A DNA stretch of 64,000 nucleotides from Croceimicrobium hydrocarbonivorans (GTDB lineage Bacteria > Bacteroidota > Bacteroidia > Flavobacteriales > Schleiferiaceae), in assembly GCF_014524565.1 (NCBI RefSeq), contig NZ_CP060139.1, positions 1,557,501 through 1,621,500 on the forward strand. The letters run 5' to 3'. The position numbers and the translations under genes were made by a program. Each line of letters opens with the position of its first letter. Within the stretch, counting starts at the first letter, position 1. Positions 56,580 through 64,000 of this stretch are shown here, in pieces. The notes under the pieces were generated by a model, which was given only the letters and a program-made list of their open reading frames with translations, ran no database searches and had not been told where the DNA came from.

Positions 56580-57545
56580 CTATGTTCCCAATAAATACCC
56601 TTTTTTGCGCCACTTTTCCTTGAGCTTAATGGGCTCATAGTCCGGGCGTTCTTCGATAGGGACATAGTCCACCTTTAATTGCTTGCAATATTCTTCAATT
56701 GCGGGAAGGCCTAATACCTTTCTTCTTTGGGCCAAATTTGATTCATCGGCAATGGGATATAAAGTGAGCTTCTGCTGAGATAGACCTTCGCCCGAATTGG
56801 CCGATCGCCCTGCTTGTGTACCAAAGATTTGCAGCCCCTCTTTATTTACTAAGAAGCGATCTACCATAAGTGCGGCCTTGGCCTTATCCGCTTCACCAGC
56901 CATAGCAACCTCAATAAAAAGTGGCAAGCACTTCTTTAAAATCTTGGGAGGACTGTGTTGGATTAAAAAGAAGCAGGCCTCTCCAGCCTTTTCGCCTACC
57001 TCAGAATTTCGCGGCCAGCCCATTTGTTCGATTAGGTCCAACAAAGCATCCCTACGTTCTTCCCGATGTTCGCGGATCAGTTCCATCTGCGAGGCAGTGG
57101 GCGGCTGATCCATGGATTTTAATGGCAATAATTCCTGCTCTTCATCCAAATACCATGACCATATCTTATAGCCTATCTCGGCTTTGCCTGCGGTAGGGTA
57201 TTGCTGCTGATATTGCCTCTGTAGCAATACATCCAATTCCGAAGCGTATTTGGCCTTAAGCTCCTTAAAGGCAGGATCATAATAAACCAGATCCCGACCC
57301 GCGCCCTTATCTATCGCTTTTTCCAATTGCTGAAATGCCTCTTCCAAGGAGCCTTTTTCCGCATCGGACCGCGCAGAAAGCAAATAAGCTGAAAAGGTAT
57401 TGGTATCCTGCCCTGCCTCTGATTGAGCTGATGAAGCCGAGCTCGAAACCGCAATATCTTGTGCTCTTAGGTCAAGGTTTAGTCCACCGACTAAGAACAG
57501 TATTGCCCAGGCTTTAAGCGCCTCATTTCTCATCCTTCTCTTCAT
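56580..57545 (-). CDS. Exported DUF6624-type protein with TPR-like N-terminus
   Basis: 321 residues from the ATG at 57545, which overlaps the HlyD gene end by 23 bp. Signal peptide ends near 'LNLDLRAQ'. Residues about 50-90 look TPR-like. The C-terminal part shows the DUF6624 features 'IEQMGWPRNSEVGEKAGEACFFLIQH', 'LPLFIEVAMAGEADKAKAALMVDRFL' and 'EGLQIFGTQ'. The family's role is unknown. Its overlap with the exporter genes places it in the RiPP transcript; an immunity or processing function is conceivable but unproven. Confidence 0.75.
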   Translation of the reverse strand: MKRRMRNEALKAWAILFLVGGLNLDLRAQDIAVSSSASSAQSEAGQDTNTFSAYLLSARSDAEKGSLEEAFQQLEKAIDKGAGRDLVYYDPAFKELKAKYASELDVLLQRQYQQQYPTAGKAEIGYKIWSWYLDEEQELLPLKSMDQPPTASQMELIREHREERRDALLDLIEQMGWPRNSEVGEKAGEACFFLIQHSPPKILKKCLPLFIEVAMAGEADKAKAALMVDRFLVNKEGLQIFGTQAGRSANSGEGLSQQKLTLYPIADESNLAQRRKVLGLPAIEEYCKQLKVDYVPIEERPDYEPIKLKEKWRKKGYLLGT

Positions 57546-58890
57546 CTTTCTTAATGGGTTTACGTTCAAAGATCTTTTTAAGATTGTGGAAAAAGCGCTC
57601 GATCAATCTCAAATCATTGGTTTTTATCTCCAGCATGCCATTCATTTCCGGCCTTAGCTCGAGCTTATGAGCCGCCTTTACTTCAGGATAATTGAGTACC
57701 TCAACCACCACTCGATAACCCTCTTCTGTAGGCAGCTCACTCACGGTCTTGACCTTGCCTTTTAGTATCCCAAATTCTTGCCAATTGTAATTGTCTAATT
57801 TAAGATTCGCCTCCTGCCCTATTTGCACCTTACCATAATTCGAAGGAGGAATAAAGGCAGAAACATAGTACTGTTGATCTTCGGGGATGATCGCCAAGAG
57901 AGGCTCTCCTGCTAAAACGGTTCGTCCTTCGAAGAGATCGACCAAATAATTAATAGTTCCATCGGTATTTGCCAGGATAATATTCGATTGCTCCCAATTG
58001 GTCATTTCACTTTTCAGGGTAGCTAGGGCCTGATTTAACTCGATCAGAAGCTCTCGACGCTCCTTTTGCAGCTCATATTCCAATTCCGATAATTGCCGTT
58101 TATAATCCGCGGTAGTAACCTTATACTGACCTTTAGTTTGTTTTGCATTTTCCAAGGCCGAAAGCTTGCCTCGATAGGCGCTTTCCATATCCATGAAATC
58201 TACTTTCGAGTAAACTCCTTCTTTAAATAGCTTTTTGTCGGCCTTATGCTTTTGCTCTGCATTTCGCAATTCGTTCCTGGCAATTCTAACCTGAGTTTCG
58301 GCAATAGACACCAGGTTTTCGTAATTGCTGATCTGCTCCTTTAAATTCAGCAAACGCATACTATCTATGCTACGACTATTTAATTCCTGGATGGCCAAAT
58401 AAGCAGAACTTAGTCGATTGAAGCTGGCTTGCAAAAGACCAAAATTTCGATTGGTATCAATATCCAGAATTAGGTTTTGGGCCAAGTCCGACTTATTAGA
58501 TATCGAGTCAAATTGAATCAAGAAAGATTGTAAGTAAGAATATTCATCGGCCGACATCGGATTCTCAAAAGATAGCAGAGCATCACCCTTTTGAACCTTT
58601 TGGCCATCCACCACAAAAAGCTTGTTTAATCGACCATTCACCAAACTGGATTTCAGCACCACCGGGTTTTCAGCTTTTACCGTGGCCATGCCCGAAATTA
58701 TATCCGGATAACGAACAAACCATGAGGCCAGTAAAACAAGAATTATAACGATAAAAACGGAAGTTACCCCCCACCTTAACAACCAATGTGGCGGCTTATT
58801 TATAATATCATTTACCACAAAAGAGCGCAGGGCTTGCTCCTCTAGCGAGCTTTTTTTCTCCTTCTGGATTTGATCTTTTACTTCTTCCAC
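57523..58890 (-). CDS. HlyD-family membrane-fusion protein of the peptide exporter
   Basis: 455 residues. One N-terminal transmembrane helix (LLRWGVTSVFIVIILVLL, about 38-60), barrel and lipoyl-like halves split by a long coiled coil (about 120-300, 'LNLKEQISNYENLVSIAETQVRIARNELRN'), and 'GRTVLAGEPLLAIIPEDQQYYVSAFI' in the second half. Connects the inner-membrane C39 ABC transporter to an outer-membrane TolC-like channel, which is not encoded nearby. Lies 16 bp downstream of the ABC gene. Confidence 0.92.
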   Translation of the reverse strand: MEEVKDQIQKEKKSSLEEQALRSFVVNDIINKPPHWLLRWGVTSVFIVIILVLLASWFVRYPDIISGMATVKAENPVVLKSSLVNGRLNKLFVVDGQKVQKGDALLSFENPMSADEYSYLQSFLIQFDSISNKSDLAQNLILDIDTNRNFGLLQASFNRLSSAYLAIQELNSRSIDSMRLLNLKEQISNYENLVSIAETQVRIARNELRNAEQKHKADKKLFKEGVYSKVDFMDMESAYRGKLSALENAKQTKGQYKVTTADYKRQLSELEYELQKERRELLIELNQALATLKSEMTNWEQSNIILANTDGTINYLVDLFEGRTVLAGEPLLAIIPEDQQYYVSAFIPPSNYGKVQIGQEANLKLDNYNWQEFGILKGKVKTVSELPTEEGYRVVVEVLNYPEVKAAHKLELRPEMNGMLEIKTNDLRLIERFFHNLKKIFERKPIKKDEEKDEK

Positions 58891-58906: not shown

Positions 58907-61110
<2,204 letters not shown>

Positions 61111-61126
<16 letters not shown>

Positions 61127-62229
61127 ATACGCTGATTTAGGGCTGAAATTTTATCCTCATCCATACTGAACCCCTGCCCATTTGATTTCACCTCACATTC
61201 CTCCAATGACAAGAAGCCAGGTTCATCATTCCATTTACTGATATAAGGATTGTAATTGCAGGGACTGCTATGATACCATTGTTGATTGCCTCGATCTTTG
61301 GGCAGTCGATTGTCTACACACATGTATCTGAACTCACAGTCTTTGCAAATGTCAGTTTTCGATTTTGCCACCTGATCCAGAGAACCCATCCCCGCTAGAG
61401 TCAAAATTTCCTTCGGATTTTTAATGTCATTCAGATTGCCAAACACTGTGGTGCATTCAGGAGCATTTCTCAGCTCTCCTTTGGTATTGATATATAGCTT
61501 GCGATTAAAATAGCTATGATGAGATTGAGCTTCAATGAACAATTCGGAGTCCACTTGAAAGCTGTAGCGATTGACCAAACAGCGATTAGGATCGTAGAAT
61601 AAGGGGCTTCGAGTTTGGATGTAAAAATGGGCTTTGCGCTCATCTAAATAATCCACGCCATCGGCCGGCGCATCATGCGCTATAAACATGGATATCCGAG
61701 GATTATCATAGAGTAAATCCTTCAAAAAGGGCAGATCAATGACTTCTGAAAAAGGAAAGGCCACTTCCAGAGACCTTAGTGGGGAGCCTTCAAATGCCTG
61801 AATGGTTTTTCTCAATTCGGATCTTAGATTTCCCTCCGAAAAACGGAGATGCAAAGCTTTAACATTAAGCTCCTTTACCCAATCTACAAGCGTGGAAAGT
61901 TGTTCTCCCTCAACATCCCAAATTAAATTAGTGATATGGCTGGGTGACTGCCAATCCAGATTGAGGGGCGGAAAGAAGTCTGGGGTTTCTGTCCAAAAAC
62001 CAAACTCCTTCTCCATCATAAACTGAAAATACTCAAGGGGGTAAATCCCTTTAGGTTGAAGAGATTCCTCGATTTCCTCTTTGGATTTCGACTCGCAAAA
62101 TTCCAAAAAGCCAATAAAACTATTGGGGATTATAAAATGAGCTTTGCGCCCTAAATCGTACAATATCGCTCGATTGTAGCCCTTTACCGGAAAGACATGC
62201 GCAAAGCGTTTAAAACGAGCGACACTCAT
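61111..62229 (-). CDS. gwsS: SPASM-domain peptide maturase of a grasp-with-spasm system
   Basis: 372 residues. A partial-barrel N-terminal part ('PSHITNLIWDVEGEQLSTLVDWVKELNVKALHLRF') followed by the SPASM cysteine set Cys259, 295, 298, 304 and 324 (ICKDCEFRYMC). The radical-SAM CxxxCxxC is missing: the only cysteine in the first 200 residues is Cys45. Consistent with the family called SPASM peptide maturase, grasp-with-spasm type. Its start overlaps the 53-codon ORF stop (ATGA). Expected to work with the ATP-grasp enzyme on the precursor peptide; its chemistry is unknown. Confidence 0.85.
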
Positions 62230-62387
62230 CTATTTAAAATAATCGGTTTGTAAAAGGACTTTAGCTGATAGGAATCCGTTTGATGCAAATCTGAGGATGC
62301 CCACTTACCGTAAGCGCTATAGCTTGGTTCTTGCAGATTTCGATAGGCAGGGCTAATATGCTCTTCAAAAATTTTAAAATCTTTCAC
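62226..62387 (-). CDS. 53-residue candidate precursor peptide between the two maturases
   Basis: Found by reading the gap between gwsG and gwsS. A GTG start at 62387 shares its G with the gwsG TAG stop (TAGTG), and its TGA stop overlaps the gwsS ATG (ATGA), so translation is coupled on both sides. Starts M-K-D-F-K-I-F-E-E-H, ends Y-K-P-I-I-L-N-R. Middle part is rich in Ser/Thr/Lys and Asp/Glu ('YGKWASSDLHQTDSYQLK'), the residues ATP-grasp maturases link. There is no double-glycine site, so it may not be the exporter's substrate. It could also be a small helper protein. Gene overlap makes it a real ORF with fair confidence; precursor role is inference. Confidence 0.6.
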   Translation of the reverse strand: MKDFKIFEEHISPAYRNLQEPSYSAYGKWASSDLHQTDSYQLKSFYKPIILNR

Positions 62388-63325
62388 TAGTATAGATTAT
62401 TGGCAGCAATGAATTCGGCGAGTTCCTTTTCTAAATGATAATTACAGGGATTCGAAACCATTCCGAATTGCCCTTGAGGATTGACCTCAAAAAAGATGAA
62501 ATTGTTGTTGGGATCGACCGCAAAATCCAATGAGCCCCAATTGAGATCGCAGGCTTTCATGAAGCTTCTAATTCGATTCTCCATCTCCTTGGGCAGCTGA
62601 AAGGGAATCGATCGATTGCGATTTTTAAGATTGTAGTTTCGAAAGTCCACCTTCGTTTGCTCGGAAGACTGACTAAATATGGCCATTGACCAACATTTCC
62701 CATTGAGGTAAAAGGTCCTGATTTCGTATTGTTTCTCTACCATTTTTTGGAAGAGGCCAAAATGAAATACTTCGGGAAGCTTCTCTACTTCCTCGAGGCT
62801 AATGGCTCGGGTATAAGATAGTCTGGGCTTCTGCTTTCCCTCGGGATCATAATAGGTATAGGGAAATGCCAAGGGCTTGGTAATCACCGAACCCTCTTTC
62901 TCTATAAATGCCTGTACATCCTTTCGATTATTGCTAATCAGACTTTCTGGAATCTGCAGGCCATGTTGAACAGCGTAGTATAACTGACGTGGCTTTTCTA
63001 CCGCTCTATACAGACTTGGAATTTGACTTCGCAGGGCCTCCAAATCATAAATCGCCATGAGATCTCCCTCGAGATTTTTCTCAAGACCTGGCAAGTCGGG
63101 ATTGGGTTCAAACCTGGCTTTAGACCAATTGCGCAACCAATAGGTATCTTTTCGCTCTCCGGCTCTGCTTTGGCTCTCAATGTTGTAGGTTCTGGAAATC
63201 ACTGCCTCGCCTGTTAGCGCTATGCTTTCCGGAAACACTCTTTTAAATGGTATATCAGAAAAGTGCAGCCAGTCTAATACGCGATCTACACTTCCTTCAT
63301 CTCTCCTTGAATATATTGTAACCAT
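62387..63325 (-). CDS. gwsG: ATP-grasp peptide maturase of a grasp-with-spasm system
   Basis: 312 residues. Resembles microviridin-type (MvdD-like) ATP-grasp ligases: N-terminal 'TIYSRRDEGSVDRVLDWL', Lys150 in 'GSVITKPLAFPYTYYD', 'EIRTFYLNGKCWSMAIFSQS', 'DFRNYNLKNRNRSIPFQLP', Asp267 in 'LNWGSLDFAVD', and the Mg site 'FFEVNPQGQFG' (Glu280, Asn282). Such enzymes form ester or amide crosslinks between side chains of a precursor (graspetides). A strong Shine-Dalgarno-like GGGGGAG directly precedes the ATG. Start is 6 bp after the upstream gene's stop. Confidence 0.9.
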   Translation of the reverse strand: MVTIYSRRDEGSVDRVLDWLHFSDIPFKRVFPESIALTGEAVISRTYNIESQSRAGERKDTYWLRNWSKARFEPNPDLPGLEKNLEGDLMAIYDLEALRSQIPSLYRAVEKPRQLYYAVQHGLQIPESLISNNRKDVQAFIEKEGSVITKPLAFPYTYYDPEGKQKPRLSYTRAISLEEVEKLPEVFHFGLFQKMVEKQYEIRTFYLNGKCWSMAIFSQSSEQTKVDFRNYNLKNRNRSIPFQLPKEMENRIRSFMKACDLNWGSLDFAVDPNNNFIFFEVNPQGQFGMVSNPCNYHLEKELAEFIAANNLY

Positions 63326-63331
63326 CTCCCC

Positions 63332-64000
63332 CTATTCTATTACTAAGACATTCGCATATACTATGGGATTTGCCACTAAAAAATCTTTGCGTTCTTTCAA
63401 TCTGCGCCAACCCTCAAAATCACCGGGTCTTTGATACCAGCCTAAATAGTCTTCGAACTTGCAATGGTGCTCTGCCAAACAAAAATGATTGATGGGTTCT
63501 AATCGGCGCCGGCCCAGATTCGAAAAGGACTCCAACTCCGGAGTCTGTTCTGGTAGCCATTCAATAACGGCATAAAGCCCTTTGGAACTAAAGGGAATCC
63601 GCAATGAGTCTAGATCAAAATAGAGCCATCCCCCTTGATCTTGGCTCAAAGCCTTAATCTCCGATCCGGCAATTATCTTCCCCGGCCTTTGGTCTGAAGC
63701 ATCGGAGACCTCGCAAAAGAAAATTCGGAAGGGATGCTCTCCTTTCGAGCTTTCGCTGATTAATAATCCGAAGCGCCAGAGAATCCCTTGCTTCACATCC
63801 TCATCGGGCTCCAGCAAAACAGCCGATCTATTGCCGGGCCTCCTGCATATATAAATGTCCTCAGACTTACGATAGGTTCCGGTTTCAAAATATTCAGCTT
63901 CTTGAGGATCAATCGGCATCACGGTAACCTCATTAAGATACATAGGATCCGGCTCGAGAAAAATGGTATCCAGGGCTTCCGAAAATACCAGGGGAAAATT
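63332..64000 (-). CDS. Carboxypeptidase-regulatory-like domain protein, 5' end cut by window edge
   Basis: 222 residues visible; the frame stays open to base 64000 on the minus strand, so an internal ATG at 63943 is not the true start. The edge sequence 'DTIFLEPDPMYLNEVTVMP' is the end of a CarboxypepD_reg-like domain; it is followed by a beta-sandwich region with 'PFRIFFCEVSD...PGKIIAGSEI', 'WLYFDLDSLRIPFSSKGLYAVIEWL'. Exported or surface protein probably. 6 bp from gwsG, hence part of the same transcript; its relation to peptide maturation is unknown. Confidence 0.65.
   Translation of the reverse strand, partial: NFPLVFSEALDTIFLEPDPMYLNEVTVMPIDPQEAEYFETGTYRKSEDIYICRRPGNRSAVLLEPDEDVKQGILWRFGLLISESSKGEHPFRIFFCEVSDASDQRPGKIIAGSEIKALSQDQGGWLYFDLDSLRIPFSSKGLYAVIEWLPEQTPELESFSNLGRRRLEPINHFCLAEHHCKFEDYLGWYQRPGDFEGWRRLKERKDFLVANPIVYANVLVIE

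Follow-up and report, generated by a model that had tools for sequence, protein, structure and literature searches.

A putative LPL-family accessory protein encoded between the ATP-grasp and SPASM genes of a grasp-with-spasm locus in Croceimicrobium hydrocarbonivorans

Between an ATP-grasp gene and a SPASM gene of Croceimicrobium hydrocarbonivorans lies a 53-codon open reading frame, and the question which it raises is whether its product is a peptide modified by the neighboring proteins or a protein which works with them. The window, that is, the whole stretch of DNA analyzed, comprises 64,000 nucleotides (contig NZ_CP060139.1, positions 1,557,501 to 1,621,500); its features are collected in Table 1. 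The original prediction described an uninterrupted frame at 62226-62387 overlapping both neighbors, and this is correct, as far as it goes. No strand had been given; the plus strand carries stops in this interval, and the uninterrupted frame is on the minus strand, running from 62387 to 62226 with the product VKDFKIFEEHISPAYRNLQEPSYSAYGKWASSDLHQTDSYQLKSFYKPIILNR. Its GTG has one base in common with the TAG stop of the ATP-grasp gene (TAGTG), and its TGA overlaps the ATG of the SPASM gene (ATGA).

Along the minus strand two GG peptides come first, then a CarboxypepD_reg-like protein of 310 aa, the ATP-grasp enzyme, the 53-codon ORF, the SPASM protein, a C39-peptidase ABC exporter and HlyD. The CarboxypepD_reg-like gene has its 5' end beyond the window (at L002 9765), and since the window stops within this gene the candidate precursors were not visible when the original prediction was made. 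Both GG peptide genes are situated 0.3-0.8 kb past the window end at 64000. The peptides are paralogues, and a search of the genome with the second returned just these two. They are likely to be the true precursors of the cluster; GG peptides occur upstream of the ATP-grasp gene in about 22 of the 27 loci examined with their flanks. Further upstream are transposase/integrase-core and RHS-repeat-like genes (L002:12635-13743 and L002:14406-18999).

Table 1. Predicted features of the locus, in the order of the minus strand. Coordinates are those of the window, except where L002 is given
Feature	Coordinates	Strand	Remarks
GG peptide MEALNSKKFEALSPEAMESLNGG-KWVYQWHVSDADGNTAVMYYQDSGIRRFFGDDYKQEVDHT	L002 10266..10075	minus	outside window
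GG peptide MESLNSNKFNSLSAEEMMALEGG-AWSKWKVIDGVEDPYGYTYYQRYNWFGLHATTDTRAEQD	L002 10024..9836	minus	outside window
CarboxypepD_reg-like protein gene (310 aa), 3' part	63332..64000	minus	between candidate precursors and ATP-grasp
ATP-grasp graspetide synthetase, grasp-with-spasm type (putative)	62387..63325	minus	TIGR04192, 219.5 bits, cut-off 230
LPL-family small protein gene (putative)	62226..62387	minus	53 aa, GTG start, TGA stop; leave-one-out profile match
SPAYRNL, codons 12-18	62334..62354	minus	counterpart of LPL-type motif P-h-x-[FY]-[KQR]-x-h (family alignment)
Conserved T/S37 and C-terminal FYKPI(S) motif, codons 37-50	62238..62279	minus	family alignment
SPASM protein	61111..62229	minus	TIGR04193, 178.7 bits, cut-off 175; RRE-like N-terminus, no CX3CX2C
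Predicted RRE/PqqD-like domain, SPASM residues 1-73	62011..62229	minus	strands 5-35, helices 36-73
C39 peptidase / ABC exporter	58907..61126	minus	family-library match
HlyD-type membrane fusion protein	57523..58890	minus	family-library match

The flanking genes had been described as those of two peptide maturases, which holds for one of them. The ATP-grasp protein is of the graspetide synthetase type: its score falls just under the TIGR04192 cut-off, it is similar to the solved enzymes AMdnB, CdnC, MdnC and MdnB, and K150, D267, E280 and N282 are invariant in its family alignment. Residues 109-305 match TIGR04192 and the best solved relatives well; the N-terminal third (1-108) does not. The acidic residues of MdnC which contact the leader, E191/D192, correspond to E178/E179 here, positions which are acidic in just 39% and 46% of the family. 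Together with the TIGR04193 SPASM protein this enzyme forms the pair that defines grasp-with-spasm loci. As a second maturase the SPASM protein is doubtful, in that the radical-SAM CX3CX2C motif is found in none of its 58 homologues, the window protein included. All 58 retain the four cysteines of one auxiliary cluster; those of the other (AuxI) are all present in 43 and all missing in 15, including the window protein, for which a single Fe-S cluster is therefore predicted. Its AlphaFold2 model (pLDDT 92.9, pTM 0.88) opens with strands and three helices whose order is that of an RRE. The sole PDB match of this model at E<=1e-3 was 5wgg, which we take to be the RRE-rSAM-SPASM enzyme CteB, with SuiB next, at low TM-scores of 0.33 and 0.25.

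Is the intervening ORF a gene? Its length alone is modest evidence, as 6 of 200 dinucleotide shuffles of the gap yield an ORF as long as 53 codons, and it is conservation that decides. The SPASM protein or the model of its family served as query in collecting loci, the gap being the interval between the ATP-grasp and SPASM genes. The original prediction had proposed conservation in orthologous loci as a check, and a frame of at least 50 aa was indeed present in the gap of 53 of the 55 loci (median 62 aa; shuffled mean 26 aa). Alignment of these gap proteins revealed two motifs, [LIM]-P-h-x-[FY]-[KQR]-x-h close to the N-terminal end and a C-terminal T/S ... F-Y-K-P-I-S, with T/S37 conserved in 80%, K47 in 76% and I49 in 29 of 41 proteins. 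By itself the 53-mer has no significant match in NCBIfam or Pfam, and a second copy was sought in the genome and not found. When searched with a family profile from which it had been omitted it ranked first among 1083 frames of the window (27.0 bits, E 2.9e-7; next 5.7 bits), and it still scores 19.4 bits with a profile built from AuxI-bearing loci only. In 395 genomes of the class all 25 profile matches with E<=1e-5 adjoin a SPASM or ATP-grasp match; many of these loci also trained the profile, and the informative part is that strong matches occur nowhere else. The dN/dS ratios of sister pairs (L007/L008, 0.16; L020/L021, 0.21; L016/L019, 0.17, the last computed at near-saturated dS) come from relatives, no close relative of the window copy having been found, and point to purifying selection in those relatives. 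We conclude from these comparisons that the ORF represents a genuine gene, one whose position and sequence are both conserved and which is tied to the ATP-grasp/SPASM pair. That it is an untranslated chance ORF, the shuffled lengths notwithstanding, is exceedingly improbable given the family-wide conservation, the profile match and the dN/dS values of the relatives.

Small proteins at this position have been described. Makarova et al. 2022 (Biol Direct 17:7, PMC8939145) defined in graspetide branch 5 the LPL family of 116 proteins, which are without GG and always encoded directly upstream of the SPASM gene. They proposed that LPL might be PqqD-like, noted a resemblance of its motif to the Phhx(1,2)h leader motif, which is missing from branch 5 precursors, and reported that other loci have unrelated small proteins in this position. 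The 53-codon gene is likewise directly upstream of SPASM, its product is devoid of GG, and the leave-one-out match includes the motif region; we therefore regard the 53-mer as a divergent member of the LPL family, the gap proteins being equated with that family by position and motif. The description of the ORF as overlooked may be right for this genome; the family to which it belongs was already published. The divergence is apparent in the motif itself, where the signature Pro is replaced by Ser (the literal LPL reads SPA); the closest relatives have MPVAYKSW (L057) and LPIGYQNW (L059) at this place. Gap proteins whose LPL motif is poor also carry the C-terminal FYKPIS motif, and this suggests that among the small proteins described in PMC8939145 as unrelated some could be divergent relatives. 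In two loci, L020 and L021, LPL and SPASM are separated by an inserted lipoprotein-like gene of about 300 aa and LPL stays beside ATP-grasp, an exception to the published rule of position.

The original prediction offered two roles, RiPP precursor or essential small partner, and favorable to the former are the small size of the product, its Ser, Thr and Lys residues (T/S37 and K47 are well conserved) and its location between modifying genes. The 53-mer has, on the other hand, no leader site, GG or other, for the C39 peptidase of its own operon. The LPL alignment does not display the conserved Ser/Thr/Lys donors and Asp/Glu acceptors of a graspetide core: Asp and Glu never exceed 34% in any well-occupied column, and a conserved acceptor is therefore absent. 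It had been claimed that Asp and Glu are concentrated in the second half of the peptide; between the halves VKDFKIFEEHISPAYRNLQEPSYSAY and GKWASSDLHQTDSYQLKSFYKPIILNR the count is four (D3, E8, E9, E20) to two (D33, D38), and for Ser/Thr three to five. Furthermore, conservation is found at both ends of the family rather than as a leader followed by a variable core, and the GG precursors lie upstream, here and in most loci with flanks. On conservation and profile grounds we reject the precursor assignment, and a role as an additional substrate would be very unlikely as well. It is the second of the two roles, that of partner, which the family-wide conservation of position and sequence supports in kind. 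We thus predict that the ORF specifies an accessory protein of the LPL family, which belongs to a grasp-with-spasm cluster (graspetide branch 5) and is not to be confused with its GG precursors.

With which neighbor might LPL interact? Of 26 precursor leaders from grasp-with-spasm loci none has the leader motif Phhx(1,2)h. Among SPASM-less loci with a related ATP-grasp enzyme, five of six have precursors with PFFAxFL-type leaders in cis and no LPL match; these precursors were selected using the motif as a filter, so that only their existence counts, and in three of the five the genome also holds a grasp-with-spasm locus. Among 41 LPL proteins the strict Phhx motif occurs in 12 (5.1 expected by shuffling) and a looser one in 21 (6.7 expected). 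Co-divergence was computed on 38 complete LPL/ATP-grasp/SPASM triples. Given ATP-grasp, the C-terminal half of LPL follows SPASM with a partial rho of 0.39 (p=0.002; 0.27-0.46 across all subsets). For 26-column blocks of ATP-grasp the values were 0.01-0.35 against the rest of that protein and did not exceed 0.22 against SPASM; those of SPASM blocks against ATP-grasp did not exceed 0.23. As the C-half value exceeds that of every ATP-grasp block with SPASM, a link between the C-half and SPASM is credible. A corresponding link between the N-half and ATP-grasp is not established, the partial rho of 0.14 (p about 0.05) disappearing in subsets. Overlaps or short gaps couple LPL to both genes, its start lying at most 15 nt from the ATP-grasp stop (37 of 41 loci) and its end at most 15 nt from the start of SPASM (36 of 40); judged by open-frame lengths, no fusions of LPL with either protein were evident. 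One Cyclobacteriaceae MAG (L011:5760-6990) has an intact SPASM gene and an LPL-like frame, with no ATG, GTG or TTG start ahead of the motif and no ATP-grasp gene in the locus; a C39-VKOR-thioredoxin fusion and a cysteine-rich GG peptide are nearby.

Our preferred model, toward which we lean by a little, is that LPL acts as a two-ended adaptor, supplying a leader in trans. The GG precursors are without a PFFARFL-type motif such as activates microviridin synthetases, and the SPASM protein, being catalytically degenerate, would hold their leader with its RRE-like N-terminus. LPL would dock on the SPASM protein by its C-terminal FYKPIS tail and on the leader site of the ATP-grasp enzyme by its N-terminal P-h-x-[FY]-[KR]-x-h helix, which would replace the missing motif. 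In this manner LPL may unite substrate receptor and ligase, activate the ligase, or both, after which the C39 exporter would cut behind GG and export the product. That LPL binds ATP-grasp we infer from the resemblance of motifs, the complementary distribution and the coupling of the genes; at the helix standing in for PFFARFL the N-half signal (p about 0.05) hints weakly. Some weak points speak against the adaptor: the faint co-divergence of the N-half, the poorly acidic E178/E179 positions of the family, the occurrence of the Phhx motif in just a part of the LPL proteins, the selection of the SPASM-less precursors by that motif and the Ser in place of the signature Pro in the window protein. 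So does L011, in which SPASM and a start-less LPL-like frame are kept without ATP-grasp. A more specific form of the model, which we consider rather doubtful, is a natural split-leader graspetide system, the activating helix having moved from the precursor into a separate protein of 50-75 aa whose C-terminal tail is tethered to a dead radical-SAM/SPASM receptor (RRE) for the GG leader.

The proposal published in PMC8939145, that LPL is a PqqD-like precursor chaperone working with SPASM only and with no direct part for ATP-grasp, agrees with the adjacency of the two genes, with the C-half co-diverging with SPASM rather than ATP-grasp, and with the arrangement in L011. A PqqD/RRE-like module is, however, already present in the SPASM protein, the profile of whose residues 1-88 matched that of the PqqD family with 58.5% probability (hhalign, E 9.6e-5, a single comparison) versus 0.1% for LPL and 0.3% for the remainder of the SPASM protein. 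Since it is the SPASM N-terminus and not LPL which is PqqD-like, the role of PqqD seems to be performed in cis. LPL is also too short for a winged helix; its AlphaFold2 model is a short helix plus hairpin (pTM 0.32), Foldseek with this model found no PDB match, and PDB sequence-profile searches with the LPL or SPASM alignments gave no meaningful relative. The candidacy of LPL as a PqqD fold or RRE was dismissed on grounds of profile and conservation. With, in addition, a SPASM protein lacking CX3CX2C, and with LPL remaining beside ATP-grasp in L020 and L021 where an inserted gene parts it from SPASM, the published guess is weakened, and we hold a SPASM-only chaperone to be unlikely. One might also imagine that LPL mimics no leader and only stabilizes the ATP-grasp enzyme, in the way that MirC stabilizes MirB in the biosynthesis of rosaritide. 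In favor of such a role are the translational coupling of LPL to the ATP-grasp gene (37 of 41 loci) and the precedent of partner-dependent graspetide synthetases (PMC13097080); the robust co-divergence signal points to SPASM instead, and we regard stabilization as a distinctly improbable explanation.

These comparisons clear away a misleading precursor assignment, supply the likely true precursors, and turn the published guess that LPL is a PqqD analogue into a set of rival models which are easy to test. Should the adaptor model be right, it would account for the acceptance of very diverse precursors by a single ATP-grasp ligase of Bacteroidota, and it would tell which proteins need to be co-expressed to make such peptides in a heterologous host. 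Were the leader truly split, one ligase could serve many unrelated precursors in such loci.

The window protein has in common with the LPL family its size and place between ATP-grasp and SPASM genes of Bacteroidota loci with GG precursors, the P-h-x-aromatic motif near the N-terminus and the absence of GG; it differs in having SPA for LPL. The microviridin/marinostatin PFFARFL leader helix (MdnA with MdnB/MdnC) similarly consists of Pro and then a short helix with hydrophobic and basic positions, and in microviridin biosynthesis it binds the ATP-grasp hairpin and activates the enzyme (PMC7823629), a contact which we propose for the LPL helix also. LPL, unlike that leader, is a separate protein with no core attached, and the motif match is partial. 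PqqD and other RiPP recognition elements are, like LPL, small partners encoded beside a SPASM protein, but LPL has no profile similarity to them and the RRE-like module is the SPASM N-terminus. MirC and CorD (PMC13097080) are likewise partner proteins in graspetide biosynthesis which are not substrates; MirC is, unlike LPL, a PpiC-type isomerase-domain protein, and the likeness drawn here is one of role.
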